Shown: positions 570-20,201 of the stretch, piece by piece | Layout of the letters: every line of letters starts with the position of its first letter | Position numbering within the stretch: the stretch's first letter is position 1 | IMG/VR virus record: IMGVR_UViG_3300017706_001853 | Coordinates: 1-22,470 of that record | Strand: one strand, 5' to 3' | Length of the DNA stretch: 22,470 bases | From: a virus | Made by a program: the position numbers and the translations under genes | The notes under the pieces: model-generated | Databases searched by the model: none | What the model saw: the letters and a program-made list of their open reading frames with translations, nothing else | Told to the model about the DNA's origin: nothing

Positions 570-944
570 ATGGATCCATTAAACCAAGTATTATTTGACG
601 ATAAATCTTTCTCAGATTTATTAAAAGAAATTCACGGTAATCAAAAGAAAAAAGCTAAACAACTTGCATCTTTAATTGCTGAATTACGTCCTTTAGTTCA
701 ATCTTTAGGAGATGCTACTGTAGTAGTTCCTTTAATTAAGGAATATATGGAAATTAGTGTCAAAAACGACGACCAATTAATAAAAATGGCGGCTATTGTT
801 CAACGTCTATCAACAAGTACATCCCAAAGTGGGGATGGTGGTCTATTAACAGATGAAGAAATGAGTCAATTAATGGATGTTGCAGAAGAAATATCTAAAA
901 CAGTAGAAGAACCAAAACAATTACCAGATGTTCACAAATATTAA
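570..944 (+). CDS. Small helical protein, conserved T4-like phage type, function unknown
   Basis: This 124-residue acidic protein has no signal peptide or membrane segment. It looks mostly alpha-helical: a basic patch (NQKKKAKQ, about residues 24-31), an amphipathic stretch to about residue 75 (LRPLVQSLGDATVVVPLIKEYM), a Ser/Thr/Gly linker near 82-92, and an acidic C-terminal helix. It is the first gene after a candidate late promoter and precedes the baseplate-spike genes, so an assembly or baseplate-hub role is plausible. I recognise it only as resembling small proteins next to tail genes in other T4-like phages and cannot assign a T4 gene number. Its end overlaps the longest reading of the next gene by 17 bases. 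Confidence 0.8.
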   Translation: MDPLNQVLFDDKSFSDLLKEIHGNQKKKAKQLASLIAELRPLVQSLGDATVVVPLIKEYMEISVKNDDQLIKMAAIVQRLSTSTSQSGDGGLLTDEEMSQLMDVAEEISKTVEEPKQLPDVHKY

Positions 945-1641
945 AGCAGTAAGAGTTCTAGAAGTAATAATGCAGTCTGTAGATCAGGCCCAGTCGGGAT
1001 CGGCTAATGTTATTGGTAATATTAGATATAATGATTTAAATGCACCTAAACCTCGTTCTACAAAACAACTTCCTTTTGCTAGACCTTTATTTAATAATAT
1101 TTCTCAATATCCTGTAGTTAATGAAATAGTATATATATTAGGAGGACCTAGAGATGATCACCCTACAACAGGAGGTTTAGGTGGTTATTATTTTCCCCCA
1201 CTTAATATTAATGGTTCGCCCCAACATAATGCACAACCAAGCGAATTTACCCCTGAAGAAATAGAAGCAGGAGTAGAAACAGGTTTAGATTATTTTAAAG
1301 AAGTAGAAAATGTAAGACCTTTACAACCTTATTTAGGGGATATAATGTTAGAAGGAAGATATGGACAGTCAATAAGATTTGGATCAACTATAAACCTAAA
1401 CGCTCCTGAAAAACCGGTACCTAATAATTGGAGTAATGAGGGAGAAATAGGAAACCCTATTACTATTATAAGAAATGGCCAAGTAGGAAAGGAACAAGGA
1501 AATTCCTTTGAACATATATTAGAAGATATAGATGGAGATGATTCAAGTATTTATTTATGTTCAAATCAACAAATAACTAATTTCCAAAAAGCAGGAGTAT
1601 ACCCTGAAAACCACCCTATGTCTTACAAACATATGTTATAA
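928..1641 (+). CDS. Baseplate hub protein, gp5 N-terminal OB-fold-like
   Basis: The protein has 237 residues from the first ATG. An in-frame ATG at 970 would give 223 residues and remove the 17-base overlap with the upstream gene; I cannot decide between them, as neither has a Shine-Dalgarno sequence. Recognisable blocks are YPVVNEIVYILGGPRDD (residues 61-77), a YYFPPLNINGSPQHNA block (87-102), LEGRYGQSIRFGST (141-154), GNPITIIRNGQ (175-185) and a DDSSIYLCSNQQI block (204-216). This series resembles the OB-fold hub part of gp5-type central spike proteins in marine T4-like phages. There is no lysozyme domain and no beta-helix in this chain; those roles may fall to the next two genes. The name is based on recalled family pattern and gene order, not on alignment. 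Confidence 0.55.
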   Translation: MFTNIKAVRVLEVIMQSVDQAQSGSANVIGNIRYNDLNAPKPRSTKQLPFARPLFNNISQYPVVNEIVYILGGPRDDHPTTGGLGGYYFPPLNINGSPQHNAQPSEFTPEEIEAGVETGLDYFKEVENVRPLQPYLGDIMLEGRYGQSIRFGSTINLNAPEKPVPNNWSNEGEIGNPITIIRNGQVGKEQGNSFEHILEDIDGDDSSIYLCSNQQITNFQKAGVYPENHPMSYKHML

Positions 1642-2492
1642 TGAGTAAAAGAGAATTAAACATATCAGATAAAAAATTACATAGAGATACTAAAGAGGAT
1701 ATTATACTTAAATCCCCCCTTAGAATTCCCCCTAAGGAACTTCAAGACCTAAAAAACTTAAAAAGATTAAATATAACGGATTATGCTTATTATGACATAG
1801 CTAAATCAGAATACCAAAAAATTGATCAGTTATCAATACCCCCACAAACACATTATGGGGGAAATGATGGTTTTTCAAGAGGGGAAGGGGGTATGAAATT
1901 GGGAGAAGAAGAAAACCCACCTTTTAAATATAGACAAGCCCTTCATTCTAATATAGCACATGAAAATGAAATAGATAATATCCCAGGGTCTGATTATAGA
2001 AATTATAATGATCCTAAATTAATTAAATCTAACATAATAAACAATTTACATGAATTATTTCAACATTGTATAAATCCTATATTCAATAAATTTGGAGAAG
2101 ACCTAGCATTAACCTCAGTTTATAGAAATAAAAAAGTAAACAAATTATTGGGAGGAGTAGAAAATAGTCAACATATATATGGTTATGCAGCAGATATAGT
2201 TCTCTTAAATAATACCCCCTCATCTACCTTATTTAATTGGTGTGTGTTTAATATACCCCAATACCATCAATTAATATGGGAATATCCAGAAAGAGGTAAT
2301 TATTCTGACTATCATCCTTCTTTTTCTTGGGTCCATATTTCTTATATAAAGGGGGATAACTATAAAATAAACTCAGTATCTTCAAAAGATCCCAAAGTCC
2401 ATATTACTTATCAAGATGAAGATACTTTTTATTTAGATAATTTTACTCACAGAATTGCATTAGCGAATCCAAAACTATTGAAAAATCAATAA
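1641..2492 (+). CDS. M15-type metallopeptidase (DD-carboxypeptidase/L-alanyl-D-glutamate endopeptidase fold), tail-associated
   Basis: A 283-residue protein whose start overlaps the previous stop by one base (TAATG). Residues 157-233 carry the M15/hedgehog-type zinc-site pattern: LTSVYR (157-162), the S-x-H-x-x-G-x-A-x-D motif as SQHIYGYAAD (176-185, ligands H178 and D185), and WVHIS (230-234, third ligand H232). Such enzymes cleave peptide cross-links or stem peptides of peptidoglycan. The N-terminal ~120 residues are charged and unrecognised, and about 50 residues follow the catalytic core. There is no signal peptide and no holin gene next to it. Its position between an OB-fold-like hub gene and a beta-helix-like spike gene points to a virion-associated enzyme that opens the cell wall during infection. 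A lysis endolysin is the alternative. Confidence 0.75.
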   Translation: MSKRELNISDKKLHRDTKEDIILKSPLRIPPKELQDLKNLKRLNITDYAYYDIAKSEYQKIDQLSIPPQTHYGGNDGFSRGEGGMKLGEEENPPFKYRQALHSNIAHENEIDNIPGSDYRNYNDPKLIKSNIINNLHELFQHCINPIFNKFGEDLALTSVYRNKKVNKLLGGVENSQHIYGYAADIVLLNNTPSSTLFNWCVFNIPQYHQLIWEYPERGNYSDYHPSFSWVHISYIKGDNYKINSVSSKDPKVHITYQDEDTFYLDNFTHRIALANPKLLKNQ

Positions 2493-2493
2493 A

Positions 2494-2964
2494 ATGAAAT
2501 TTATACCAGAATCCCCAAAAACATATCAAGGAAACCAAGTAATAATAAACTCGGATAGATTAGTCTTTAATGCTAAAGAAGATGCAATACTTTTATACTC
2601 AGATAAAGCTATAGGTTTTTCAACAAATGGAAATTTTCATTTTGACACTGACAATTTAGGAGATGCTAAATTTATAGTAAATGCCCCTAACATATATTTA
2701 GGAATAAACAATTCAGGAGAATTACCAACAGAACCTGCAGTTTTAGGACATGAATTAAAAGAATTATTAACTCAAATATTAGATTTATTTGATATGATGT
2801 CAATAGATGTATGTTATAATATAGCTCATTTAACAACAGCAGCAGGAACCCCTACAGGAATGAACCCAGCTAATGGATCTATTTATATATGCTTACAAGA
2901 AGAAATTGATGCTGTAAGAAATAATATAGATGATATAATGAGTCAAAACACAAAATTAGTATAA
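2494..2964 (+). CDS. Central spike protein, beta-helix-like, gp5 C-terminal type
   Basis: A 156-residue protein starting one base after the peptidase stop. Residues 16-51 alternate hydrophobic and polar positions in short strands (VIINSDRLVFNAK, AILLYSDKAIGFSTNG, NFHFDT), followed by FIVNAPNIYLG (60-70) and EPAVLGHELKELL (80-92). This resembles the N-A-K/L-x-S-x-x-x-I-x-x-x-T pattern I associate with the triple-stranded beta-helix of T4 gp5-type and VgrG-type spikes, with the N-A-P-x-I-x-L-G exit segment. The last third (about 95-156) appears helical. The protein would form the membrane-puncturing needle as a trimer. Confidence is moderate, because beta-helix calls from strand rhythm alone are easily wrong. 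Confidence 0.55.
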   Translation: MKFIPESPKTYQGNQVIINSDRLVFNAKEDAILLYSDKAIGFSTNGNFHFDTDNLGDAKFIVNAPNIYLGINNSGELPTEPAVLGHELKELLTQILDLFDMMSIDVCYNIAHLTTAAGTPTGMNPANGSIYICLQEEIDAVRNNIDDIMSQNTKLV

Positions 2965-2965
2965 T

Positions 2966-3919
2966 ATGTCATCACAAGCTGTAAGAAATAATATAACAAC
3001 TAGTATACGTAGAGTAATAACTGATGTTAAACGAAAAGTAATATCTGAAGGAAAGAAGAAAATAATGGAACTTAAAGACGAACTTCTTACCCCTGAGCAA
3101 ATCATACGAATGCTGTCTTCAGATATAAATCAAGATTCTTGTAGTATAGCAGGTAGAAATAAAATGAAAGAAAAGGCTATAGAGCTAACAAACCAATTAA
3201 ACCAAATAGACGAAGTAGCCCAAGGAGCATTAACAGTAATGACTGGTTTAGAAGATAAAATAGGCTCAATTTCAATAAAAGCAAAACTAGAAATGCCTAA
3301 TCCTCCTACGATACCTGATCCTATAGAAGGAATAAAAAAAATAACAGACGCCATAAAACCTATAACAAATATATTACAAAAAGTTATCATGGCTTCGCCT
3401 GCTATTTTAGCAGCTAATGTATCAGCACCAGGAACAGGAGGACCTGTTAATGGTTTAGCAATTGCCCAAACAAACAATAAAGTAAATTTAGCTAAAGCAA
3501 AAATAGCAGAATTTACAAATTTATTTCAAGCTTTACCAAGATTATTAGATAAATATACATCTATGGCAGATAATATTTTTGCAAAAATTACTTTAATAAA
3601 AAGTAATATCCAAATAATAGTAGATGAGATAAATAAATTAAAAGCATTTATTATATATTTAGAAATGGATTTTGAAGATAAATGTAATGAATTCCAGTTA
3701 GCTGAAAACCCTCCAGTTCTTGACCCCCCTAATACTGGAGTTAATATTGATCAATCTCTTACTTTAGATGATATAATAGCTCAAGCTGAAGAACTTTATG
3801 GAAATTTATTAGAAAGTTTAATAGCTCAAGGACAAAATAGAGCAATAAGAAGAGTATATGCTTTAGGAACACAACTTCAAAGAATTAAAAATACTAAAGT
3901 CGAACAAATAAACATATAA
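2966..3919 (+). CDS. Helical predicted virion protein, function unknown
   Basis: A 317-residue protein, one base after the spike gene stop. It is largely helical and lysine/glutamate-rich: a basic N-terminal helix (SIRRVITDVKRKVISEGKKK), an aliphatic region, a proline linker (PNPPTIPDP, about 111-119), a small-residue hydrophobic patch (about 140-156, IMASPAILAANVSAPG) too polar to be a convincing membrane helix, then long helices and a second proline linker near 248-258. The C-terminus is a basic amphipathic helix. The architecture would fit a baseplate-hub or tail-tube-initiation component (the place of T4 gp27/gp29/gp48/gp54), but I see no family signature and do not choose between these. 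It is the last gene before the next candidate late promoter. Confidence 0.8.
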   Translation: MSSQAVRNNITTSIRRVITDVKRKVISEGKKKIMELKDELLTPEQIIRMLSSDINQDSCSIAGRNKMKEKAIELTNQLNQIDEVAQGALTVMTGLEDKIGSISIKAKLEMPNPPTIPDPIEGIKKITDAIKPITNILQKVIMASPAILAANVSAPGTGGPVNGLAIAQTNNKVNLAKAKIAEFTNLFQALPRLLDKYTSMADNIFAKITLIKSNIQIIVDEINKLKAFIIYLEMDFEDKCNEFQLAENPPVLDPPNTGVNIDQSLTLDDIIAQAEELYGNLLESLIAQGQNRAIRRVYALGTQLQRIKNTKVEQINI

Positions 3920-3935
3920 GAAACAAACAAATTTT

Positions 3936-3948
3936 ATATTTATAATAA
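3936..3948 (+). promoter_or_regulatory. Candidate late promoter motif, copy 2
   Basis: ATATTTATAATAA lies in the 41-base gap before the gene at 3961, 15 bases from the core to the ATG. It shares the 10-base core with the copies at 551 and 16348. The leader that follows (AAACACAAACAAAC) is purine/C-rich, lacks a Shine-Dalgarno sequence, and resembles the leader at 16358. Confidence 0.5.
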
Positions 3949-3960
3949 ACACAAACAAAC

Positions 3961-4371
3961 ATGAAAGCAAAAACTTTTGAAAATTTAATTAGAAAAGTAG
4001 TTAGAGAAGAAATAGACTACTCTTTACGCAGAGAAATAAAATCACTTAAAGAAGATTTACGTAGTGAACTTAAACCAACAATAGTAGAACACACTGAAAG
4101 ACAGGTTGAAGTTCCTGAAGCAACAAAACAATCATTAAGAGATCAAATTATGGGTACAACACCAGTAAAACAACGCCCAAAACAAAATTTTACATCTAAT
4201 AGTTCATTAAATGATTTATTAAATGAAACAGCACAAGGAGACACTAACACACAAACAGCCATGGCTCCTAGTATAATGGAAACGGCAAATATGCCAGCAC
4301 CAGTAGCAGAAGCAGTAACAAGAGACTATAGTGATTTAATGAAAGCAATAGCTAAGAAAAAAGGAAACTAA
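3961..4371 (+). CDS. Small charged helical protein, function unknown
   Basis: A 136-residue protein, first in the baseplate operon. The first ~50 residues form a strongly charged helix (FENLIRKVVREEIDYSLRRE and onward), suitable for coiled-coil contacts. Residues about 65-115 are rich in Ser, Thr, Asn, Gln and Pro and look disordered. The C-terminus ends in a short conserved-looking helix (YSDLMKAIAKKKGN). No catalytic motif or membrane segment is visible. It is followed after three bases by gp25. An assembly chaperone or a small wedge-associated protein are possible roles, but neither can be shown from the sequence. Confidence 0.78.
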   Translation: MKAKTFENLIRKVVREEIDYSLRREIKSLKEDLRSELKPTIVEHTERQVEVPEATKQSLRDQIMGTTPVKQRPKQNFTSNSSLNDLLNETAQGDTNTQTAMAPSIMETANMPAPVAEAVTRDYSDLMKAIAKKKGN

Positions 4372-4374
4372 CAA

Positions 4375-4782
4375 ATGCCTATAATTAATTCAAGGAGAAG
4401 AATAAACCCATTAGATCTTAATAAAAACGTTAAGATAGGGGTAGCTTTTCCTTTGGATGAAACAAATATGTTTTCAGGAACTGAAACTGTTAAAGAACAA
4501 GTAAAGGCTAATTTATTAAATCTTTTATTAACTTATCCGGGTGAAAGAATAAATTTACCTAATTATGGAATAGGTATGAAAAATCTTTTATTTGAACAAA
4601 ATATAGATCTAGAAACATTAAAAGAAAAAATTCAAACCCAAATATCCACTTATATACCTTCTATACAACTAAGAAATATATCAACAAACCAATCAGAAGA
4701 TAAACATGCATTATTTATTAGCTTATCATATGTTTATCTTTTAGATGGTAGTAGTAATTCAATACAATTAAATTTTAACTAA
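4375..4782 (+). CDS. 25: Baseplate wedge protein gp25 (GPW/gp25 family)
   Basis: A 135-residue protein (T4 gp25 is 132). The family core is plain: VAFPLDETNMFSGTETV (23-39), then a helix leading to LLLTYPGERINLPNYGIGM (50-68), the signature Y-P-G-E-R...P-x-Y-G segment, and a helix LETLKEKIQTQI. gp25 forms part of the inner baseplate wedge that locks onto gp6 and the sheath end and is conserved in all contractile injection systems (P2 gpW, T6SS TssE). The next gene starts on the last base of its stop codon (TAATG) and encodes its partner gp6, the usual W-J order. Confidence 0.93.
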   Translation: MPIINSRRRINPLDLNKNVKIGVAFPLDETNMFSGTETVKEQVKANLLNLLLTYPGERINLPNYGIGMKNLLFEQNIDLETLKEKIQTQISTYIPSIQLRNISTNQSEDKHALFISLSYVYLLDGSSNSIQLNFN

Positions 4783-6671
4783 TGGCATATAATAAAGTAT
4801 CAAATAAAAGTCAAGATAAAGATGTAAAATATTTAAGTAAAGATTATAATGGTTTTAAAAACCAACTAATAAATTTTACCCAAACATATTTTCCTGATAA
4901 TTTTAATGATTTTAGTGAAGGTAATCCAGGAATGATGTTTTTAGAAATGGCAGCTTATGTAGGAGATGTTTTATCTTTTTATACTGATACACAATTAAGG
5001 GAATCATTTCTAAATTTAACCCAAGATAAAAAAAACTTATACAACTTAGCTTATTCTATGGGTTATAAACCTAAAACAACATCAGCAGCAAGTGTAAATT
5101 TAGATATATCTCAATTAGTACCTTCAGATTCAAGTAACAATTATGAACCGGATTATGATTATGCTTTAACTATAAACCAAAATTCTACATTTTTCTCTTC
5201 AGAAGGACCCTCTTTTTATACAACTAAAGACGCAAGATTTGGATTTTCATCATCATTTGAACCTACAGAAATAAGTATATATCAATATGATGTTTCAAAT
5301 AATCCCGAATATTATTTACTTAAAAAAACAGTACCTGCGGTTTCTGGGGAAATAAAAACCCAAACATTTACAATAGGACCAGCAGAAAAATTCAAAACAA
5401 TTAATTTATTTGATTCAAATATTATTTCTATAGAATCAATAACAGATTCAGATGGTAATAAATGGTCAGAAGTACCTTATATGGCTCAAGATACTATATT
5501 TGAAGAAGTAGAAAATTTAGGAACTAATGATCCTACCTTACAACAATATAATAACCAAACACCTTATCTTTTAAAATTAAAAAGAACATCAAAAAGGTTT
5601 ATAAGTAGAGTAAGATCAGATAACAGTATAGATATTCAATTTGGAGCAGGTACAAGTGATAAAGCAGACGAACAAATTATACCAAACCCAGATAATATTG
5701 GTTTAGGAATTAAAGATGGAAGAAGTAAATTAGATGTAGCTTATGACCCTTCAAACTTTTTATATACTCGAGCATATGGAGAAGTACCCTCAAACACAAC
5801 TATAACAGTTACTTATCTTGTAGGAGGGGGATTATCATCTAATGTAAATTCAAACACAATAACACAAATTGGGACTTTATCAACTATTAATAAACCTGGA
5901 GGGAATGTTTCTATGATGAACTTTGCAAAATCCTCTGTAACATGTACAAATGTTCAAGCAGCAAGAGGAGGGGGAGCAGGAGAAACACTAGAAGAAATAA
6001 GAATGAATACAATGGCTCATTTTTCTAGTCAACAAAGAACAGTTACAAAAGAAGACTATTTAATAAGAACTTTATCTATGCCCTCCCAACTTGGTAGAGT
6101 AGCTAAAGCTCATATAACACAAGATGATCAAATTTCTCCACTAACAAATGAACCTAACCGTATCCCAAACCCACTAGCTTTAAATTTATATACTTTAGGA
6201 TATGATTCAGATAAGTATTTAGTAACATTAAACAATGCTACTAAGAATAACTTAGCAACTTATTTAGAACAATATAGAATGCTAACAGATGCAATTAATA
6301 TTAAAGACGCATTTGTGATTAATTTCCAAATAGAGTTTGAAATAACAACATTTAAAAATTTTAATAATCAATTAGTATTATTAGAATGTATATCAGAATT
6401 AAAAAATTATTTTGTCATAGATAAATGGCAAATAAACCAACCTATTATTATATCAGAAATAATGAATTTAATTGGGGGGGTAGATGGAGTACAAACAATA
6501 AACAGTCTTACATTTAATAATGTAAGTGGAGAAGCTCAAGGTTATTCTCAATATAAATATGGTTTTACTAAAGCAACAAGAGATGGGGTAATTTATCCTT
6601 CAATGGATCCAAGTATTTTCGAATTAAAATTCCCTAACACAGATATTAACGGACGTGTAACAACATATTAA
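4782..6671 (+). CDS. 6: Baseplate wedge protein gp6 (baseplate J-like)
   Basis: A 629-residue protein (T4 gp6 is 660). The N-terminus has the T4-type gp6 opening: YLSKDYNGFKNQLINF (18-33), DFSEGNPGMMFLEMAAYVGD and LSFYTDTQLRESFL. A later block, ARGGGAGETLEEIRMN, then VTKEDYLIR, is the baseplate J core found in gp6, P2 gpJ and T6SS TssF-type wedge proteins. The C-terminal part ends with a short region after LIGGVDGVQTINSLTF. gp6 dimers form the inner iris ring of the baseplate that opens on contraction. It overlaps gp25 by one base. The start codon is followed by GCA TAT, a Met-Ala-Tyr opening shared with three other genes here. Confidence 0.93.
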   Translation: MAYNKVSNKSQDKDVKYLSKDYNGFKNQLINFTQTYFPDNFNDFSEGNPGMMFLEMAAYVGDVLSFYTDTQLRESFLNLTQDKKNLYNLAYSMGYKPKTTSAASVNLDISQLVPSDSSNNYEPDYDYALTINQNSTFFSSEGPSFYTTKDARFGFSSSFEPTEISIYQYDVSNNPEYYLLKKTVPAVSGEIKTQTFTIGPAEKFKTINLFDSNIISIESITDSDGNKWSEVPYMAQDTIFEEVENLGTNDPTLQQYNNQTPYLLKLKRTSKRFISRVRSDNSIDIQFGAGTSDKADEQIIPNPDNIGLGIKDGRSKLDVAYDPSNFLYTRAYGEVPSNTTITVTYLVGGGLSSNVNSNTITQIGTLSTINKPGGNVSMMNFAKSSVTCTNVQAARGGGAGETLEEIRMNTMAHFSSQQRTVTKEDYLIRTLSMPSQLGRVAKAHITQDDQISPLTNEPNRIPNPLALNLYTLGYDSDKYLVTLNNATKNNLATYLEQYRMLTDAINIKDAFVINFQIEFEITTFKNFNNQLVLLECISELKNYFVIDKWQINQPIIISEIMNLIGGVDGVQTINSLTFNNVSGEAQGYSQYKYGFTKATRDGVIYPSMDPSIFELKFPNTDINGRVTTY

Positions 6672-7857: not shown

Positions 7858-9794
7858 TGGAAAATAGTTTATGTCATCCTATTCCTACTCCAGGATGCCC
7901 CAATTGGGAAGCCATAATGTATGGGATGTCTCAATCTGAAATTGAAATTTACTTATCAACCCCTTATAAAGGAGGGAATAAAGAACATTTCCCTTTATTA
8001 AAAAACGTAATTAGTAACCAATCAGCAAAAGAAAAAATATCAGATTCTTTTAAGGAAGTTGCAATATCGGAAGAAAAATTTGATAGTGAAAAAATTAAAG
8101 GAATATATAATGATTTATTTTTTCAAATTCCTAAAAAAGGTAAACAATCACACACAACTATAATAGAACAAAGCACAGATTTTGTTTTTCCTGAAATAAA
8201 TGAGAATTTAGAAAACTCAATAGCAGAAAAAGAAGAAACTCTATTAGAATTAAATAACACTTATTTATCAGGATCTATCCCCCGAATGGAACCTACACAT
8301 CCTATTTACGATAATGGGACTTTGGTACAACAAGGAACAACCTATCCAGATGAACCAAATTCAGATATATGGTATATCCAACAAGGATTTAAAAGAAAAT
8401 TAGGAAGAAACTCAGATGGAGATGTAGGGGGATATTGGCATAGATTATTAAGACAAGCAAAAGGAGAAGAAGTTTATACAGGAGAAGAATATAATAAATT
8501 AGATGAATCTCCAAATTTTAGATATCTCACCCCAACAGAATTAAACGGTATAAAGAATGGAGAAGATATAAATAGTGGGGATGATTTAAATATAAAAACA
8601 ATCACAGATCAAGGAGATGATTTCATATATTCAGAAATAAGAATAGAACTTACATGTGAAGGAAGAGAAAGATTTTACAAATATAAATATGGTGAAGAGG
8701 GTTATGATTATGATCTTTCAGAGTATGAACATGGTGGTATAATGGGGGGATATTGGTATCTTGACCCTGGGGGGAGTTGTAAAGTAAAAACACAACGAGA
8801 TATAGATCCATCAGCTGATTTTGAATCAATAACTGGTTATACTACAATTCAGGGGGGAAAATCTAAAACTATAACTATTTCAAGAGATGAAAAGTTTTAT
8901 ACCGACAATTTTATTAATGGTACCAATGATCCTTTAGACTCTAATTTTTATAAACCTTCAGCTGATGAAATAATAATAGAAGAAACAAGACAGGGATATG
9001 GTCATAGTTTACCTACTCTGGGGGTATGGAAAACATGGGGGGAAGGAAAATTATTTCCCTCAATAATTGATGTAGAACCAGGAAGTAGACTAAATTATAG
9101 ACTAAAGTCCCCTTATAATCAATTTGGGGGAATAATAGATGGAAATGGGAGTTCACATAAACTTTATGCCATAATAGACGGAGGAGCTCCTAATCAGGAA
9201 GCAATTACACAAGGTTATCCAAAACAAAAACATATCTTAACTTCACGTTATGATTCAGATTCTAATTATGGAACTAGAATGATACATAAGGAGTGTGTTG
9301 GTCCTTTAAATGTCCAAGGGAATTGTTATGGAGCATTAGAACAAAGTTCTACTTTACAAAACCATTTTAATAATCCTGATTTTGTTTATTATAAAACAAA
9401 GGTAACGGGGGGTTCTAGTGGTATTTCGATGTATGGTCAACCAATTTTAAAAATTAATGGAAAATATTGTGTATTTTTGTATGGTGAGAGGGAAGGGGGA
9501 CTATTTAGCACCACATATTGGAATGTATTTATAAATTTACACTCTGGTACACAATTTTATAAAAAAAATAAATATCTAGATGATGATGTTTATGGATATA
9601 CACGAGATTCTAAAAAAGATTTTGATTGGTTTATTGATGGAAAACCTAACCCCTCAATATATTATCCAGGACTACAAGGTGTAAAATTAAACCAATACCT
9701 TGCAGATTATAATAAAAATGATAACCCTTTTAATCCTAAAAATGGAGGTAATAACTATGATGCATCATTAATTACACCTAATTACAATTGGTAA
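7857..9794 (+). CDS. Large predicted baseplate/tail protein, unrecognised
   Basis: A 645-residue protein starting on the last base of the previous stop. I recognise no domain. The first ~150 residues are charged and helical with scattered prolines (CHPIPTPGCPNWEAIMYGMS at the start). From about 165 onward it is Gly-, Tyr-, Trp- and Asp-rich and looks all-beta, with several cysteines and Trp-Tyr pairs (GGYWHRLL, GGYWYLDPGG) typical of receptor-facing proteins. A short segment WYIQQGFKRKLG (172-183) recurs as YYIQSGKRRKIIG in the next protein. G homopolymer runs are frequent. Position between the wedge genes suggests a baseplate-peripheral or fibre-attachment protein. Confidence 0.75.
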   Translation: MENSLCHPIPTPGCPNWEAIMYGMSQSEIEIYLSTPYKGGNKEHFPLLKNVISNQSAKEKISDSFKEVAISEEKFDSEKIKGIYNDLFFQIPKKGKQSHTTIIEQSTDFVFPEINENLENSIAEKEETLLELNNTYLSGSIPRMEPTHPIYDNGTLVQQGTTYPDEPNSDIWYIQQGFKRKLGRNSDGDVGGYWHRLLRQAKGEEVYTGEEYNKLDESPNFRYLTPTELNGIKNGEDINSGDDLNIKTITDQGDDFIYSEIRIELTCEGRERFYKYKYGEEGYDYDLSEYEHGGIMGGYWYLDPGGSCKVKTQRDIDPSADFESITGYTTIQGGKSKTITISRDEKFYTDNFINGTNDPLDSNFYKPSADEIIIEETRQGYGHSLPTLGVWKTWGEGKLFPSIIDVEPGSRLNYRLKSPYNQFGGIIDGNGSSHKLYAIIDGGAPNQEAITQGYPKQKHILTSRYDSDSNYGTRMIHKECVGPLNVQGNCYGALEQSSTLQNHFNNPDFVYYKTKVTGGSSGISMYGQPILKINGKYCVFLYGEREGGLFSTTYWNVFINLHSGTQFYKKNKYLDDDVYGYTRDSKKDFDWFIDGKPNPSIYYPGLQGVKLNQYLADYNKNDNPFNPKNGGNNYDASLITPNYNW

Positions 9795-9810
9795 AAAATA
9801 TAATAATAAA

Positions 9811-10386
9811 ATGATTAATTCAAAACTAAAAAGAACAATATATGAATCTAAAAAAGCAAGAGATATTTTAGATGAGGAATTTGTTGAATTTGGACCAATA
9901 AAAAGAAACATAAATGAGTTTTTTAACATATATAATACTAAATTTTATAACATTCTAAAAATAGTCCATAAATTTTTTGCAGAACAAAGTTTACAATATG
10001 TAATAGATTATATTAACCCTAAAAAACTAACAGAAATGGGTTTACAGGAAGAAATAGAAAGAACTCAAATAGAAATAGATTCTATTGAGAAATTCCATCC
10101 TATTTTTCAAAATAACACAGTTTTAAATATGTATGGAACTGAAAATTATTATTACATACAATCAGGAAAAAGAAGAAAAATAATAGGAGAGGAGTTGATA
10201 CAAAAAGTAAAAGATAGTCTTAGAAAAACTAACAAATCAAAAAAAAATTGGTCAATAAACGTACCTTCAGCTACAATAAATGGTATCCCTAGAGGACCTC
10301 GAATTGAAAAAGAAGAAGACATAAATATATCTACTTATACAACTAACACGGGAAAAGTCCTACCCTTTAATACTTATACCGGATAA
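9811..10386 (+). CDS. Helical predicted virion protein, unrecognised
   Basis: A 191-residue basic protein, 16 bases after the previous gene. Residues 1-95 look helical (LKRTIYESKKARDILDEEF, then a long amphipathic helix with FYNILKIVHKFFAE). Residues 108-130 contain the YYYIQSGKRRKIIGEELIQK segment that matches a stretch in the upstream 645-residue protein. The C-terminal ~50 residues are Pro/Gly/Asn/Thr-rich and probably extended. The lone gene-order clue is that it sits between two large baseplate proteins. No enzyme motif is seen. Confidence 0.75.
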   Translation: MINSKLKRTIYESKKARDILDEEFVEFGPIKRNINEFFNIYNTKFYNILKIVHKFFAEQSLQYVIDYINPKKLTEMGLQEEIERTQIEIDSIEKFHPIFQNNTVLNMYGTENYYYIQSGKRRKIIGEELIQKVKDSLRKTNKSKKNWSINVPSATINGIPRGPRIEKEEDINISTYTTNTGKVLPFNTYTG

Positions 10387-10396
10387 ATAACATATA

Positions 10397-13300
10397 ATGG
10401 CATATTCTTCAACAAATACTTCAACAAATACTAATAAAACAGTATCCGAATATTCTTCAACAAATATTTCAACAAATGATCGTGAAACTACTTATGATGA
10501 TTCAGTTAGTTTAGGACCAGAAGTATCTTCAAAAACCATACAAACAACTTTTGGTAGAGAAGAAGATTATATAGAACTTCACATACAAAACACAGCGGGA
10601 CAATTAATATACTCAGAAACAAATTTTCAAGATTATGAATTAAATGAGGATAAAAACGAGATATCATTTAACCCAGAAAAAATACTAACAGATAGAGGAT
10701 ATATTTCGGGACAATATATTTTAAAAGTACATCTTCATAGAAATAAAATATTCCATTCATCACATTTTCCTTTTTCTATTAAAGAAATATCTACCTCTCG
10801 TAGAGAAATAAAATCAATAGCTGAAGGTACTAATAATGATTTATTTGATGAAGCTATACTTAATTTTATTTTAGAAGTAGAAAGTGCATCTTATTTTAAA
10901 GAATTTCTTTTAAACTTTAGTGGGGGAGTATTAGTATCAGGAATCAATTTAATGTTAAATAAGGATACATTAAAACATGAATTAATATTAAAAACACTAG
11001 AACCTCTACCTACAGATATAAATAAAACCTCTACCTTTAAAATTGTAGAAGAAATATCAGATCCCATTTCTGTGGATATTGATTTAGGGGGACAGGAGAT
11101 AATAGATGATAGTATTGAACTGAGGGGTCCTAATTTCCAAATAAATACAAGACAAAAAAGCTCTATTCCCTCTGCATTTAAGACTTATAATGATATATTA
11201 AGCTATAATATAACTTCTTCTTATAACCATTTATTAAATAAATTAGAAAACCCAGACACAGTAAATATACAATATGATCATATAAGAAATGTATCTTCAA
11301 GTATGGAAGAACTTGATAGACCTTACCATTTTGAAAACTTTACTCATTTTAGTAGTGCTGTAGAAAGACTAAAGAATTTTAAATTTAAATTAAAATCAAT
11401 AGAATCACTTGAATCACAAATAATAGAAACAGAATTAATACAAGGAACACTTACAGATTCTAATACTTATAAAAATATTATAGGAAATTTTAAAACTAAA
11501 AAAAGAAATTTAATAAAAGAATTTGATGGATATGAGCATTTTTTATATTTTAACTCAGGTAGTCTTTATGATTGGCCTAAACAAAATACAACAACCCCTT
11601 ATAAATTATATTCAATAACCTCTTCCCAAGCAATAACATGGTTAGGAAATGAAGAGAGTGTATTTAATAATTATGGGGGTCAATTATTATCAGCTTCCCT
11701 ATATGATAGAGAAAACCCACATAATTTACTAAAAATAACACCAGAACATATATTAGATAACTCTAATAATAGTTTATATATTAAATTTGTAAACATGATG
11801 GGTCAACATTTTGATCATATATGGACATATATAAAACACCTAACAGAAATACACAATGCAGATAATAAATTTGGTATTTCAAAAGAATTAGTTTATTATC
11901 AACTTAAAAACTTAGGTATAGATACTTTTGACCAATTTGAAAATACAGATTTATTAGAATACATTTTAGGAGAAGGTTTATATGATAATACAATAGGAAA
12001 CGCAGTAATTGGTCAATGGGTTATAGGAAGTAATACAAATACTTTTTATAATGTTGAAAGAGGAATAAAAACATATGTCACAGCTTCAAACCAAGGGTCA
12101 ATTCCTAAAGGACAAATTACAAAAGAAATTTGGAAACGTTTATACCATAACGCTCCTTATCTTTTAAAAACTAAAGGAACAGAAAGAGGATTAAATGCAT
12201 TAATGAATTGTTATGGTGTACCTCGAACTATTTTAAATGTTAAAGAATATGGGGGAAATACACTTTTAAGTGGACCTTTAAAAGATTTAGATACTTCTGG
12301 TACTTATAAAACTTTTAGTTATGAAAAATCAGGATTAGCATTAAAAGGAGAATCAGGCCCAACAGGAAGTTTTGTCACAACAAAATGGTCTTCTTCTCTA
12401 ACAGATGCTCTTTCTGCTTCAGCTAAAACAGTTGAATTTAGAATTAAACCTATTAGATTAATTGATGATTCTCATCAACATTTATTTACATTATCAGGAA
12501 GTGATGCAACTAAAGACCCAACATTAAGATTAACAACTTATGTAGGATCAGACATATCAGCATCTAATGACGCATCTCAACATGGTCAAATAGATTTAAT
12601 TATTAATGACACAGTAGTTAAATCAACCTCACCTTTCCCAGTATACAACGGAGATTTTTGGAATATTTATATAGGAGTATCAGGAAGTACAGCAGCAACT
12701 AACGATATAACATTTGGGGCATATCAAGCTAATTGGCTAAAACATGTATCTGCATATACAGAAAGTGTAGCACAAACAAAAGCAGATAGACAAGTAACCT
12801 TTGGAGATCCTTTTAACGGGGGTAATAATATAGGAGGAGCTTTAAACGCCCATTTTGGGGGTATACCTACAAATTTACACGCAGCTTATAATGCTAGTAG
12901 TACACATAAAATAGGTGCATTACGTTTTTCAGGTTCAATTCAAGAAATTAAATATCATTTTGGAGAATTATTGTCACATGAAACTCTTAAAAAACATGCA
13001 CTTGAACCTTTTATGTATAGTGGTAATACACCTTCTTCTTCTTTAGAAACTGTAGTATTAAGATTACCTTTAGGATCAAATGATCAAGAAGATAGTGGAA
13101 GTTTTCATCCTAATATAGAAAATAACCATTTAGAATTTTCAGGAGTAAATTATTCACCTATTCAAAATGGTTTTATAATTGGAAATTATAATAGAAGAGT
13201 TTCAAGTAGTTTAGCTTCTCAAGAATGGGAAGAAGTAATAGAAACACACCATTTACCTACACCAGACACAGTAGGTGCTTCTATGACTAGTGAAAAAGTA

Positions 13301-14461
13301 AGAATAGACACAGGAACAATCCCCTCAGACAATATATTATCAGTAGATCATAAAACAGAAACATCTACATTAGACAGACAACCACAAGATTTTGAAGATT
13401 TAGGTATATATTTTTCACCTACAACTGAAATAAATGAAGATATAATTTATACTTTAGGATCTTTTAGATTAGATGATTATATAGGTAATCCTCTACCTTC
13501 AGCTCAATCTGCTTCCCTTTATGAAAGCTTAAAAGATATTCAAAAAGTTTATAATAAAAAATTAAGAGGAAGATATAATTATTGGGATTATATTAGATTA
13601 ATACAAGATTATGATCATACTCTTTTTAAAATAATAGAAAATTTTGTCCCTTTTAAAGCAAATACAAAAACAGGCTTATTAATAGAACCAACATACCTTG
13701 AAAGATCAAAATTCCAAAGAGAAGTACCTATAAGAAGTGATGGTCAGACAATGACCACAGGTTCACATCAAACTTTTGAAGCTCAAATAGAAACTTATAA
13801 TGCAAAAAATAAAGCATTTGCTTTTGCCCCTACAAATTTATATAAAAAAGATGGAACAGGTTCACTTATAAACACAGAAGATCCTTTTGCAACATCATCA
13901 AATATCCTTTCTACAATAGGACAGTGGGAACCAGGAAGTTATGTTGTTAGTAATAATAATTTAACTTTTGTAACTTCAAGTAAATATAGTGATAGATTAG
14001 AACAAGGAACCAATGGAACCATAGAAATATATGATGATTATATGGATCCTTTTAAAAGATTAAAAAATCATTTTGGAGCTATCCATTCAAATAATGGTCA
14101 ATCATGTCAAGCACCAATAAGACCTGTAAGACCAAACAGAAGACATTATGGAATAGGTGCTGCAGCTGTAGGAGGTGGTTTTGTTATAGGAAATTATTAC
14201 TTATATGGGGGAGGAAATTTAAGAGGAGTAGGTCATTCAACTATAGAAAGTGGCTTTATAGTTGAGGATTATATACCTACTGTACAACCAGGTGTGGGAT
14301 CAGCAGTAATTGGAAGTAATTTTATAGTTGGTTTTACCCAAACAGTTAATCCATCAGACCCAAAACAATATAAAACCCACACATCAAATACATTATTAGG
14401 AAATATTACAGTAGGTAGAAAATCTAAAAAATATTTTAAATATACAACTTATTCATTATAA
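10397..14461 (+). CDS. Giant baseplate wedge/fibre-base protein with gpI-like core and lectin-like domain
   Basis: A 1354-residue protein with Met-Ala-Tyr start. Order seen: a Ser/Thr/Asn-rich N-terminus with a 16-residue tandem duplication; a beta region (about 55-240); helical stretches (about 260-380); a core at 574-620 with ITKEIWKRLYHNAPYLLKTKGTERG split over WKRLYHNAPYLLKTKGT and LNALMNCYGVP, resembling the 'NAPxLxxxKGTxxGL' segment of P2 tail protein I; a concanavalin/LamG-like beta sandwich (about 677-875); helices near 1085-1130 (YNKKLRGRYNYWDYIRL); and a C-terminus ending NTLLGNITVG...KYFKYTTYSL. The gpW-gpJ-gpI order of contractile phages suggests it does the job of T4 gp7 (1032 residues) or P2 gpI. 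Motif copies of the GFVIGNY type occur near 536, 919, 1255, 1280 and 1301. Confidence 0.7.
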   Translation: MAYSSTNTSTNTNKTVSEYSSTNISTNDRETTYDDSVSLGPEVSSKTIQTTFGREEDYIELHIQNTAGQLIYSETNFQDYELNEDKNEISFNPEKILTDRGYISGQYILKVHLHRNKIFHSSHFPFSIKEISTSRREIKSIAEGTNNDLFDEAILNFILEVESASYFKEFLLNFSGGVLVSGINLMLNKDTLKHELILKTLEPLPTDINKTSTFKIVEEISDPISVDIDLGGQEIIDDSIELRGPNFQINTRQKSSIPSAFKTYNDILSYNITSSYNHLLNKLENPDTVNIQYDHIRNVSSSMEELDRPYHFENFTHFSSAVERLKNFKFKLKSIESLESQIIETELIQGTLTDSNTYKNIIGNFKTKKRNLIKEFDGYEHFLYFNSGSLYDWPKQNTTTPYKLYSITSSQAITWLGNEESVFNNYGGQLLSASLYDRENPHNLLKITPEHILDNSNNSLYIKFVNMMGQHFDHIWTYIKHLTEIHNADNKFGISKELVYYQLKNLGIDTFDQFENTDLLEYILGEGLYDNTIGNAVIGQWVIGSNTNTFYNVERGIKTYVTASNQGSIPKGQITKEIWKRLYHNAPYLLKTKGTERGLNALMNCYGVPRTILNVKEYGGNTLLSGPLKDLDTSGTYKTFSYEKSGLALKGESGPTGSFVTTKWSSSLTDALSASAKTVEFRIKPIRLIDDSHQHLFTLSGSDATKDPTLRLTTYVGSDISASNDASQHGQIDLIINDTVVKSTSPFPVYNGDFWNIYIGVSGSTAATNDITFGAYQANWLKHVSAYTESVAQTKADRQVTFGDPFNGGNNIGGALNAHFGGIPTNLHAAYNASSTHKIGALRFSGSIQEIKYHFGELLSHETLKKHALEPFMYSGNTPSSSLETVVLRLPLGSNDQEDSGSFHPNIENNHLEFSGVNYSPIQNGFIIGNYNRRVSSSLASQEWEEVIETHHLPTPDTVGASMTSEKVRIDTGTIPSDNILSVDHKTETSTLDRQPQDFEDLGIYFSPTTEINEDIIYTLGSFRLDDYIGNPLPSAQSASLYESLKDIQKVYNKKLRGRYNYWDYIRLIQDYDHTLFKIIENFVPFKANTKTGLLIEPTYLERSKFQREVPIRSDGQTMTTGSHQTFEAQIETYNAKNKAFAFAPTNLYKKDGTGSLINTEDPFATSSNILSTIGQWEPGSYVVSNNNLTFVTSSKYSDRLEQGTNGTIEIYDDYMDPFKRLKNHFGAIHSNNGQSCQAPIRPVRPNRRHYGIGAAAVGGGFVIGNYYLYGGGNLRGVGHSTIESGFIVEDYIPTVQPGVGSAVIGSNFIVGFTQTVNPSDPKQYKTHTSNTLLGNITVGRKSKKYFKYTTYSL
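10402..10477 (+). repeat. Tandem duplication of 48 bases encoding a Ser/Thr/Asn-rich N-terminus
   Basis: Two 28-base copies beginning ATATTCTTCAACAAATA, at 10402-10429 and 10450-10477, differ at one base and are 48 bases apart. In frame they give YSSTNTSTNTNKTVSE and YSSTNISTNDRETTYD, so the repeat unit is 16 codons with the second half diverged. The segment is probably a flexible tether. Confidence 0.85.
11999..12034 (+). repeat. GFVIGNY-type motif, divergent copy (G)
   Basis: Encodes N-A-V-I-G-Q-W-V-I-G-S-N just upstream of the gpI-like core of the 1354-residue protein. It matches the later copy at 14300 (S-A-V-I-G-S-N-F-I-V-G) in its first five positions but lacks the F and Y anchors, so membership is uncertain. 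Confidence 0.35.
13151..13192 (+). repeat. GFVIGNY motif, copy C
   Basis: Encodes Y-S-P-I-Q-N-G-F-I-I-G-N-Y-N at residues 919-932 of the 1354-residue protein, in a stretch downstream of the lectin-like domain. Its codons match copy B (19605) closely across ATT-xAA-AAT-GGT-TTT-xTA-ATT-GGA-AAT-TAT. Confidence 0.7.
14141..14338 (+). repeat. Three tandem GFVIGNY-type motifs (copies D, E, F)
   Basis: Within ~66 residues near the C-terminus of the 1354-residue protein lie A-A-V-G-G-G-F-V-I-G-N-Y (14159-14200), H-S-T-I-E-S-G-F-I-V-E-D-Y (14234-14275) and S-A-V-I-G-S-N-F-I-V-G-F (14297-14338), each preceded by a G-[IV]-G or G-V-G element. The flanks (PIRPVRPNRRHY before, VNPSDPKQYKTHTSNTLLG after) read as if they should be contiguous, so this looks like an inserted array. 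Confidence 0.65.
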
Positions 14462-18176: not shown

Positions 18177-20201
18177 ATGGCATACGTCTACAAACAATTT
18201 ACAGCTCAAGATCAAGCAATAATACCCTTTAACGCTCACAAACAGTATAATTTTACTTCTGCTTCGGCATCAACAAATTCCGTTTCTTTTTATAATGCAA
18301 GATGGACTTCTGAGTCTTATGACATTTATAGTAGTGGAAGTGCTTCAGCTGATTCTATTAATATACTTAAATATAATCAAGTAGATAAACTTTATTATAG
18401 AAATTATCATTCTCAAATTCATGATAAATTAGGACCTATAGAATATATAAAACAACCTAGAAATTTATATGAAAAATTAAATATACTTTCCATTCCTATG
18501 GGGTTATATGGTAATGAAATAAAACCAGGTTCTTTTTATTTATCATCAAGTGAATATAGTATAATAGATGATAAATTTGGTAATTTATTACTTAGTGGAA
18601 GTGGAATTCAATATGATACAACCCTTTATCCTGATAATCCTCAACAAAATGTATTTAGATTAGATCCTATAAAAGGTTTTGAAAGATATGACTTAGGAGT
18701 ACATGAAGGATATGCTACAATTTCTGAAGAAGCTTTCACCACCACAAAAGATCAAATTGAAGAAGGAATTATAGGAGCAGCACCAAAATCCAACCATCAA
18801 AAAGTTTATCATAAAAATAAATGGAGAAGAGGAACTAGGATAGATACTAATGAACCTACAACTTACACAACAGGTCAAAGAAAACCAATACTATTTTATG
18901 GTTTAGATAAGGATGATAGTTATTTTATGAATAACATACATTATAATAATGTAACTTTTAACACTTCTTCATTAGGAAGCACTTCTCATAAATTCCCAAA
19001 AATATCCTTTAACAGCACAACAGGATCTTTAATATCATCATCCCACTCAGAAAAATTTAATTTTAATGGAGATGAAGATTTCTCAATATCTTTTTGGATA
19101 AAACCAAAACATGTAACAACAAGTGGAAGTATAGGATCATCAACAATAGAAAATGGTTTTGTAATAGAAAATTATGTTAAACAATTAGTAGATAATAAAA
19201 AAAGATACATTTTATCTAAAAGCAACACAAAAAACATCCACTCTCATTATTATAAAGATCCTACAAACCCCACAAACCTTAATCTTAAAGATATTTCTAA
19301 AGTAGTAAAAGCAGAAAATAGATTCCCTTATGAAATATATATGCAAAGTAGTTCCTTATATTTTAATATGTCAGACGGGAACAAAATAATATCAATTACC
19401 ACCGAAATAACAGGAGTATATAACAATAATTTTAATCCTATACATATTTTTTGCCAAAATTCAGCATCCAAAATGGAGATTTGGAGAGATGCAGTCAAAA
19501 TATCTACTACTCCTGTATCTTTTAAAGACCAAACAAGAAATACCGCTGATCTTTATATAGGATCTAGTGGTGATATAACTATCGATAAAAGTGGGGGAGT
19601 ACAATCTTCAAGTATTGAAAATGGTTTTGTAATTGGAAATTATGTAAATAGTTCAAGTAACTTTCATAGGGGATTTAATGGGGATATAAGTAATATTAAT
19701 ATATGGTCTAGAGGATATCATACGAGCATGATTAATAATATATCAGAAAGTATAAATGGATCTCCTTATATAGGAAATATATTTTATCAAAATGGGTTTG
19801 CAACAATAACTCATCCTAAATATCACCATATTTTAAACACTGCTGGAGTAGGAACTGCTTCTATAGGAGGTACAAATTTCCAAAGTATATTCCAAGTAGG
19901 AAATAGAGGAATAAATACACTACAATTTCAAGGAACACATTTAATGTATGAACATGAATATCAATGTACAGTAGGAGAACATGAATTTAATGATACACAA
20001 AATATTTCAGCAAAGAAATCAAAATCAAATAATACTCATAAGTTAGCTGATTTTACAACAAGCTCATTATTTAAACCTCACGTTACAACAGTTGGACTTT
20101 ATGATGATAATATGGAACTGTTAGTAGTAGGTAAATTAGGACAACCAGTAAGAATGTCAGATGAAACAGATACAACTTTTGTGCTAAGATGGGACACATA
20201 A
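18177..20201 (+). CDS. Predicted tail protein with LamG-like domain and inserted peptide motifs
   Basis: A 674-residue protein with Met-Ala-Tyr start, 12 bases after its neighbour. Residues 85-140 contain IPMGLYGNEIKPGSFYL and SIIDDKFGNLLLSG, a block also seen in weaker form in the upstream protein. A LamG/pentraxin-like domain spans about 290-515: NFNGDEDFSISFWIKPK (296-311), KMEIWRDAVKI (432-442), LYIGSSG (459-465) and FNGDISNINIWSR (500-512). Two near-identical inserts carrying IENGFVI[EG]NYV (321-334 and 477-490) interrupt loops of this domain, and a third related stretch lies at 556-576. The C-terminus has FQGTHLMYEHEYQCTVGEHEFND and VTTVGLYDDNMELLVVGKL. LamG-like folds commonly bind glycans, so a host-surface role is reasonable but inferred. 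Confidence 0.78.
   Translation: MAYVYKQFTAQDQAIIPFNAHKQYNFTSASASTNSVSFYNARWTSESYDIYSSGSASADSINILKYNQVDKLYYRNYHSQIHDKLGPIEYIKQPRNLYEKLNILSIPMGLYGNEIKPGSFYLSSSEYSIIDDKFGNLLLSGSGIQYDTTLYPDNPQQNVFRLDPIKGFERYDLGVHEGYATISEEAFTTTKDQIEEGIIGAAPKSNHQKVYHKNKWRRGTRIDTNEPTTYTTGQRKPILFYGLDKDDSYFMNNIHYNNVTFNTSSLGSTSHKFPKISFNSTTGSLISSSHSEKFNFNGDEDFSISFWIKPKHVTTSGSIGSSTIENGFVIENYVKQLVDNKKRYILSKSNTKNIHSHYYKDPTNPTNLNLKDISKVVKAENRFPYEIYMQSSSLYFNMSDGNKIISITTEITGVYNNNFNPIHIFCQNSASKMEIWRDAVKISTTPVSFKDQTRNTADLYIGSSGDITIDKSGGVQSSSIENGFVIGNYVNSSSNFHRGFNGDISNINIWSRGYHTSMINNISESINGSPYIGNIFYQNGFATITHPKYHHILNTAGVGTASIGGTNFQSIFQVGNRGINTLQFQGTHLMYEHEYQCTVGEHEFNDTQNISAKKSKSNNTHKLADFTTSSLFKPHVTTVGLYDDNMELLVVGKLGQPVRMSDETDTTFVLRWDT
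19137..19178 (+). repeat. GFVIGNY motif, copy A, inside the LamG-like domain
   Basis: Encodes S-S-T-I-E-N-G-F-V-I-E-N-Y-V (residues 321-334), preceded by G-S-I-G. It lies between the strands ending FWIKPKHVTTSG and beginning KKRYILSKS, a place where LamG-like domains usually have a short turn. Confidence 0.75.
19605..19646 (+). repeat. GFVIGNY motif, copy B, inside the LamG-like domain
   Basis: Encodes S-S-S-I-E-N-G-F-V-I-G-N-Y-V (residues 477-490), identical to copy A at 12 of 14 residues but with several synonymous codon differences. It lies between LYIGSSG and NFHRGFNGDISNI, again a loop position in the fold. Confidence 0.75.
19842..19910 (+). repeat. GFVIGNY-type motif, divergent copy I
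   Basis: Encodes A-G-V-G-T-A-S-I-G-G-T-N-F-Q-S-I-F-Q-V-G-N-R-G (residues 556-578). It shares G-V-G-x-A-x-I-G and a late V-G-N with the copy at 14297, with extra residues in the middle. It lies between the segments THPKYHHIL and NTLQFQGTHL. Confidence 0.45.

Follow-up and report, generated by a model that had tools for sequence, protein, structure and literature searches.

The question raised by this locus is whether a T4-like phage can carry the cell-puncturing spike of its tail as separate gene products, with a peptidase at the place where T4 gp5 has its lysozyme. The window, by which we mean the whole stretch of DNA analysed, is a 22,470-base fragment from an uncultured virus. A preliminary description had recognized in it three consecutive genes, read as an OB-fold-like hub, a zinc peptidase and a protein with a beta-helix-like strand rhythm, that is, as T4 gp5 split into its modules. 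The order and layout of these ORFs are as described (Table 1), with a 1-base overlap at position 1641 (TAATG) and a single base (2493) between the second and the third. Together they probably encode the central spike, consisting of hub, peptidoglycan peptidase and needle, of a marine, as yet uncultured contractile phage of the T4-like type.

Table 1. Predicted features of the spike cluster and the adjoining baseplate genes in the window.
Feature	Position	Strand	Remarks
Hub protein	928..1641	+	237 aa; N-terminal half of spike; gp5-N-like by position
Middle ORF (small adaptor domain and M15)	1641..2492	+	283 aa
Small adaptor domain, approx. 92 residues	1641..1916	+	Fused N-terminally to the peptidase in the window
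M15 zinc peptidase domain	1917..2492	+	Pfam PF08291, 8.3e-10
Needle (spike tip) protein	2494..2964	+	156 aa; extended segment 1-84, helical hairpin 85-148
Conserved 124-aa ORF, function not assigned	570..944	+	Directly 5' of hub gene; related loci examined
Conserved 317-aa ORF, function not assigned	2966..3919	+	Downstream, same cluster
gp25-like baseplate wedge gene	4375..4782	+	Pfam PF04965, 1.3e-13; phrog_261
gp6-like baseplate wedge gene	4782..6671	+	phrog_219, 7.8e-21

The adjoining genes for gp25-like and gp6-like wedge proteins anchor the spike genes in a T4-like baseplate cluster. The corresponding wedge proteins of Flavobacterium phage immuto and Microcystis phage Mel-JY01 are 45-47% identical to the gp6-like protein. 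The hub has relatives at 57-67% identity on seven IMG/VR contigs, all of which follow the gene order of the window up to the point where they end; the order of the hub, M15 and needle proteins is kept across independent contigs, so the arrangement is not due to chance. Directly upstream of the cluster, positions 1-542 encode the C-terminal part of a conserved ORF which we take to be a gp55-like late sigma factor; the fragment gave no family match in Pfam or PHROG. Elsewhere in the window, a motif of about 20 residues with the consensus S-T-I-E-N-G-F-V-I-x-N-Y occurs at positions 13135, 14143, 14218, 19121 and 19589, the sites being divided between two tail genes, ORF 10397-14461 and ORF 18177-20201. 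Its copies are 60-78% identical in DNA, and it may serve for docking or be a mobile peptide element.

The product of the middle ORF matches the Pfam M15_3 family (PF08291) above the curated cut-off and, among the PHROG families, an endolysin family (phrog_894, 1.1e-16). The zinc-peptidase pattern reported for this gene (SQHIYGYAAD...WVH) is present and occurs once in the forward frames. The putative zinc ligands H178, D185 and H232 (numbering of the 283-aa ORF) are invariant in 71/71 distinct M15 domains, and W230 and E217 are equally invariant. The protein is thus a genuine M15 peptidase, and the conservation fits an active metallopeptidase. Judged by its family the enzyme would cut a peptide bond, in agreement with the earlier proposal of a peptide-bond rather than a glycan-bond enzyme, M15 being a peptidase family and not a glycosidase family. 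What had been overlooked is that the middle gene is not a single unit: besides the M15 domain it encodes a small N-terminal domain. Close relatives divide the 283-aa ORF: an ORF of about 93 aa (range 92-116) matches the N terminus of the window protein, and a second ORF, of about 200 aa, encodes M15. The small adaptor domain is thus a separate gene product in close relatives, while in other relatives it forms the C terminus of the hub; its fusion to M15 as in the window is the sole case among the 95 distinct loci surveyed below.

The hub belongs to a family of which profile-guided searches found more than 500 related stretches in IMG/VR, and its product carries the family signature EGRYGQSIRFGS. 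Profiles of this family had no match in Pfam, PHROG or PDB sequences, and a comparison by hhalign with nine T4-type gp5 proteins gave nothing (probability about 0.1 %), so that the profiles lend no support to homology with T4 gp5. The structure model built from 7 close sequences, with a pLDDT of 36.6, is a failed prediction. The OB fold is therefore inferred from the N-terminal position of the hub in the spike and from the impression recorded in the preliminary description.

For the needle protein a model based on 57 sequences was obtained with a pLDDT of 76.6. Residues 1-84 are extended and form no intramolecular strands, whereas helices are predicted at residues 85-110 and 127-148, giving a hairpin. 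A beta-helix-like character, as had been proposed for the third protein, would thus apply at most to residues 1 to about 84. An extended segment that lacks internal pairing is the expected look of one chain in an intertwined trimer, as we infer from the model. The VXGXXXXX repeats of T4 gp5 are absent from the 156-aa protein when its sequence is read by eye, and profile comparison of the needle with T4 gp5 gave no link; a short beta-prism of another type is possible. DUF2345, the domain of the VgrG spike, matched the start of the needle segment weakly in 5/10 relatives with a fused hub and needle, the best value being 0.0065 and all below the curated cut-off, and members of the needle family have weak PHROG matches to baseplate proteins. 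Searches of the model against the PDB with Foldseek and VIA-align returned only helical hairpins and noise, and are uninformative because the hairpin dominates. The best match in BFVD (E 0.011) is a 327-aa protein, probably p063 of Rhodothermus phage RM378, which has the same length and is also matched by the fused-spike profile (E 4e-6).

The hub/needle junction was then compared among relatives. Besides the hub-related stretches, profile-guided searches found nearly 500 needle-related ones; the best 80 of each were fetched, and the hub-to-needle interval was classified in 95 distinct loci, which were chosen by similarity to the window so that the counts are not population frequencies. An M15 domain lies at the junction in 65/95 loci, 12 times fused to the hub with a separate needle gene and 53 times on a gene of its own. 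The latter comprise 25 loci with the order hub plus small domain, M15, needle; 16 with hub, M15, needle; 11 with hub, small domain, M15, needle; and the window itself (hub, small domain plus M15, needle). M15 joined to the needle in one ORF was found nowhere in the surveyed sample. The M15-to-needle junction is -1 or +1 base in 37/53 cases, which fits coupled translation.

A further 12/95 loci encode hub and needle as one ORF with no enzyme between, and in 18/95 the needle is separate and no M15 is present. Among these 18, Amidase_2 is fused to the hub in seven loci (L028, L034, L035, L059, L063, L074 and L082) and, as identified by PHROG, in L159; an amidase-like protein is encoded by a separate gene in L068 and L081, and an M23 domain is fused to the hub in L038. 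The hub bears an unidentified C-terminal domain in L044, L061, L062 and L078, and L030 and L086 have a separate needle gene but no enzyme (L058, also of the group with a separate needle and no M15, was left out of the domain scan). The hub-fused domains at the enzyme slot of L044 (2593-5007), L061 (3081-5477) and L159 (2086-3948) have no Pfam match and could be an undescribed wall enzyme; those of L044 and L159 share the pattern ..H.....NSIHIP.....WAE..H.AD. L159 contains tandem hub genes (2086-3948 and 3962-5998), one with this domain and one with an amidase, followed by a single needle gene, possibly an intermediate of enzyme exchange.

The 12 one-ORF loci include those of Flavobacterium phage immuto and Microcystis phage Mel-JY01 and that of a phage of 484 kb, in which the hub leads directly into the needle within an ORF of 378-503 aa. 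Immuto and Mel-JY01 have homologous hub, needle, gp25 and gp6 in the same order as the window, but unlike the window they lack M15. These one-gene versions in distant relatives indicate that hub and needle are parts of one spike-like protein elsewhere. In Mel-JY01 an endolysin/chitinase-like ORF (9361-10392; phrog_181, 9.9e-33) directly follows the one-ORF spike.

In an unrooted tree of 65 hub domains, with M15, amidase, M23 and none as states, the enzyme at the junction must have changed at least 7 times; being unrooted, the tree does not tell gain from loss. M23 is nested in an M15 clade, where its row has an M15 row as sister (support 99/93), and one of the rows in an amidase group has no enzyme (100/99). 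In a quick tree the M15 domain requires 4 changes between fused and separate forms. As far as can be judged from sequences, the wall enzyme is repeatedly exchanged, fused, detached or lost among relatives. Since the slot may be fused, separate, replaced or empty, the locus does not represent a fixed three-gene split. The one-ORF form is confined to more distant rows of the hub tree, and the locus is better described as a spike of two domains that has received a slot for an enzyme. Because this form is phylogenetically clustered and L086 has a split spike with no enzyme, the correlation between the presence of an enzyme and a separate needle is not independent proof that the two are connected. 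The claim that the gp5 modules are split, with a peptide-bond enzyme in the place of the lysozyme, is thus largely supported as a statement about architecture, by the gene order, the position at the junction and the one-ORF relatives; homology to gp5, an OB fold and a long beta-helix of the gp5C type are the parts that did not find support, and the split is not a fixed one.

The position of the M15 gene might be misleading if its product were a late-made endolysin that is merely located among baseplate genes, with hub and needle forming an enzyme-free spike. The closest phage family matches of the enzyme are indeed annotated endolysins (phrog_894), and the longest related contigs, all of which are incomplete, yielded no second wall enzyme among the families tested (the search for GH108 is uninformative, since it matched no control genome). 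Against this stand the 12 distinct loci in which M15 and the hub form one covalent chain, as one would expect of a component of the virion and not of a lysis gene, the replacement of M15 by a hub-fused Amidase_2 or M23 at exactly that place, and the interleaving of M15 genes with the spike genes, mostly by -1/+1 base junctions. We regard the endolysin explanation as unlikely; that relatives carry M15, amidase or M23 on the hub itself speaks most strongly for a role of the separate M15 protein on the spike and not in lysis. Dual use, in which a single M15 product would act in the particle during entry and again at lysis, is less probable still. The separate-gene form would permit an excess of free enzyme, and among the families tested the related fragments revealed no further lysis enzyme, but hub-fused versions are hard to reconcile with such a double role unless they are processed.

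Most loci are single metagenomic contigs and L117 has a broken M15, so one may also ask whether the gene splits are assembly artefacts, in which frameshifts or false stops have broken up what is really one fused gp5-like gene. Dozens of contigs that differ widely in sequence nevertheless have these boundaries at the same places, the start regions are conserved (MKFIPExPxTYQGNQ) and the -1/+1 spacing is consistent, and we give this explanation hardly any weight.

A spike in which hub, peptidase and needle act together resembles T4 gp5 in the order hub domain, wall enzyme, needle and in the baseplate gene context. T4 gp5 is a single polypeptide with a lysozyme, which is cleaved during maturation between lysozyme and beta-helix at Ser351/Ala352; its lysozyme stays inhibited for as long as the beta-helix is in place (PMC3004832). 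The window has three ORFs and an M15 peptidase, which in relatives is often a separate gene product; the needle is short and has a helical hairpin, and it comes to lie on a separate chain by a gene boundary instead of proteolysis. An M15 domain of the same subfamily is found on the tail-tip protein EST35_0245 of Pseudomonas jumbo phage PA5oct, with the difference that it is carried there by a PAAR tip of a single chain and not by a hub/needle junction. The record of this protein lists ESI-MS/MS detection, but metabolic enzymes detected by MS are listed as well, so it is not clean evidence for the virion. CBB_240, a protein with a gp5 OB domain and a possible M23 peptidase, was detected in virions (PMC5259590, where the names CBB_240 and CBB_250 are used inconsistently). 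The CBB/RaK2-like gp5-type proteins share with the window an unusual wall-enzyme content; unlike the window they consist of a single large chain that ends in a lysozyme. The 'OB domain protein' of Klebsiella phage Roth76 was considered as a split gp5 and rejected, being one intact ORF of 1731 bases.

How would such a spike function? The separate M15 protein may dock on the hub, perhaps via the small domain of about 92 residues. Upon sheath contraction the needle would pierce the outer membrane and detach, after which the enzyme could cut stem peptides or cross-links of the peptidoglycan and allow the tube to reach the inner membrane. By analogy with T4, the gene boundary before the needle might replace the proteolytic maturation of gp5 and give the same mechanical freedom, leaving the needle free to dissociate and the enzyme exposed. 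A wider proposal for this large, uncultured clade of marine T4-like phages, which we put forward tentatively and hold to be somewhat less probable than its opposite, is that the wall enzyme, whether M15, amidase, M23 or another, is an exchangeable cartridge docked non-covalently via a mobile adaptor. Wherever the spike has an enzyme, the needle would be kept as a separate chain, able to drop off and thereby arm the enzyme, and gene splitting would take the place of the T4 proteolysis.

In the literature searched we found no match for an M15 tail lysozyme at the hub/needle position and no description of an exchangeable, often detached enzyme slot between hub and needle; nor did we find proteomics of phages from this clade. 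A peptide-cutting enzyme on the tip of a large contractile phage is not unheard of, given the M15 domain of PA5oct and the possible M23 of CBB. Each of its parts resembles something known, yet the spike as a whole clearly exemplifies a modular machine for puncturing cells. According to a review, phages of Gram-positive hosts are almost the only source of virion-associated endopeptidases (PMC6116005); an M15/M23 slot, if common in T4-like phages such as these, whose nearest cultured relatives infect Flavobacterium and Microcystis, would revise this view.

The building and arming of a cell-puncturing needle have been studied mainly in T4. The relatives of the window, with no enzyme, a hub-fused enzyme, an enzyme on a separate gene or different enzymes at the same place, provide a natural series for asking how such a needle is built and armed.
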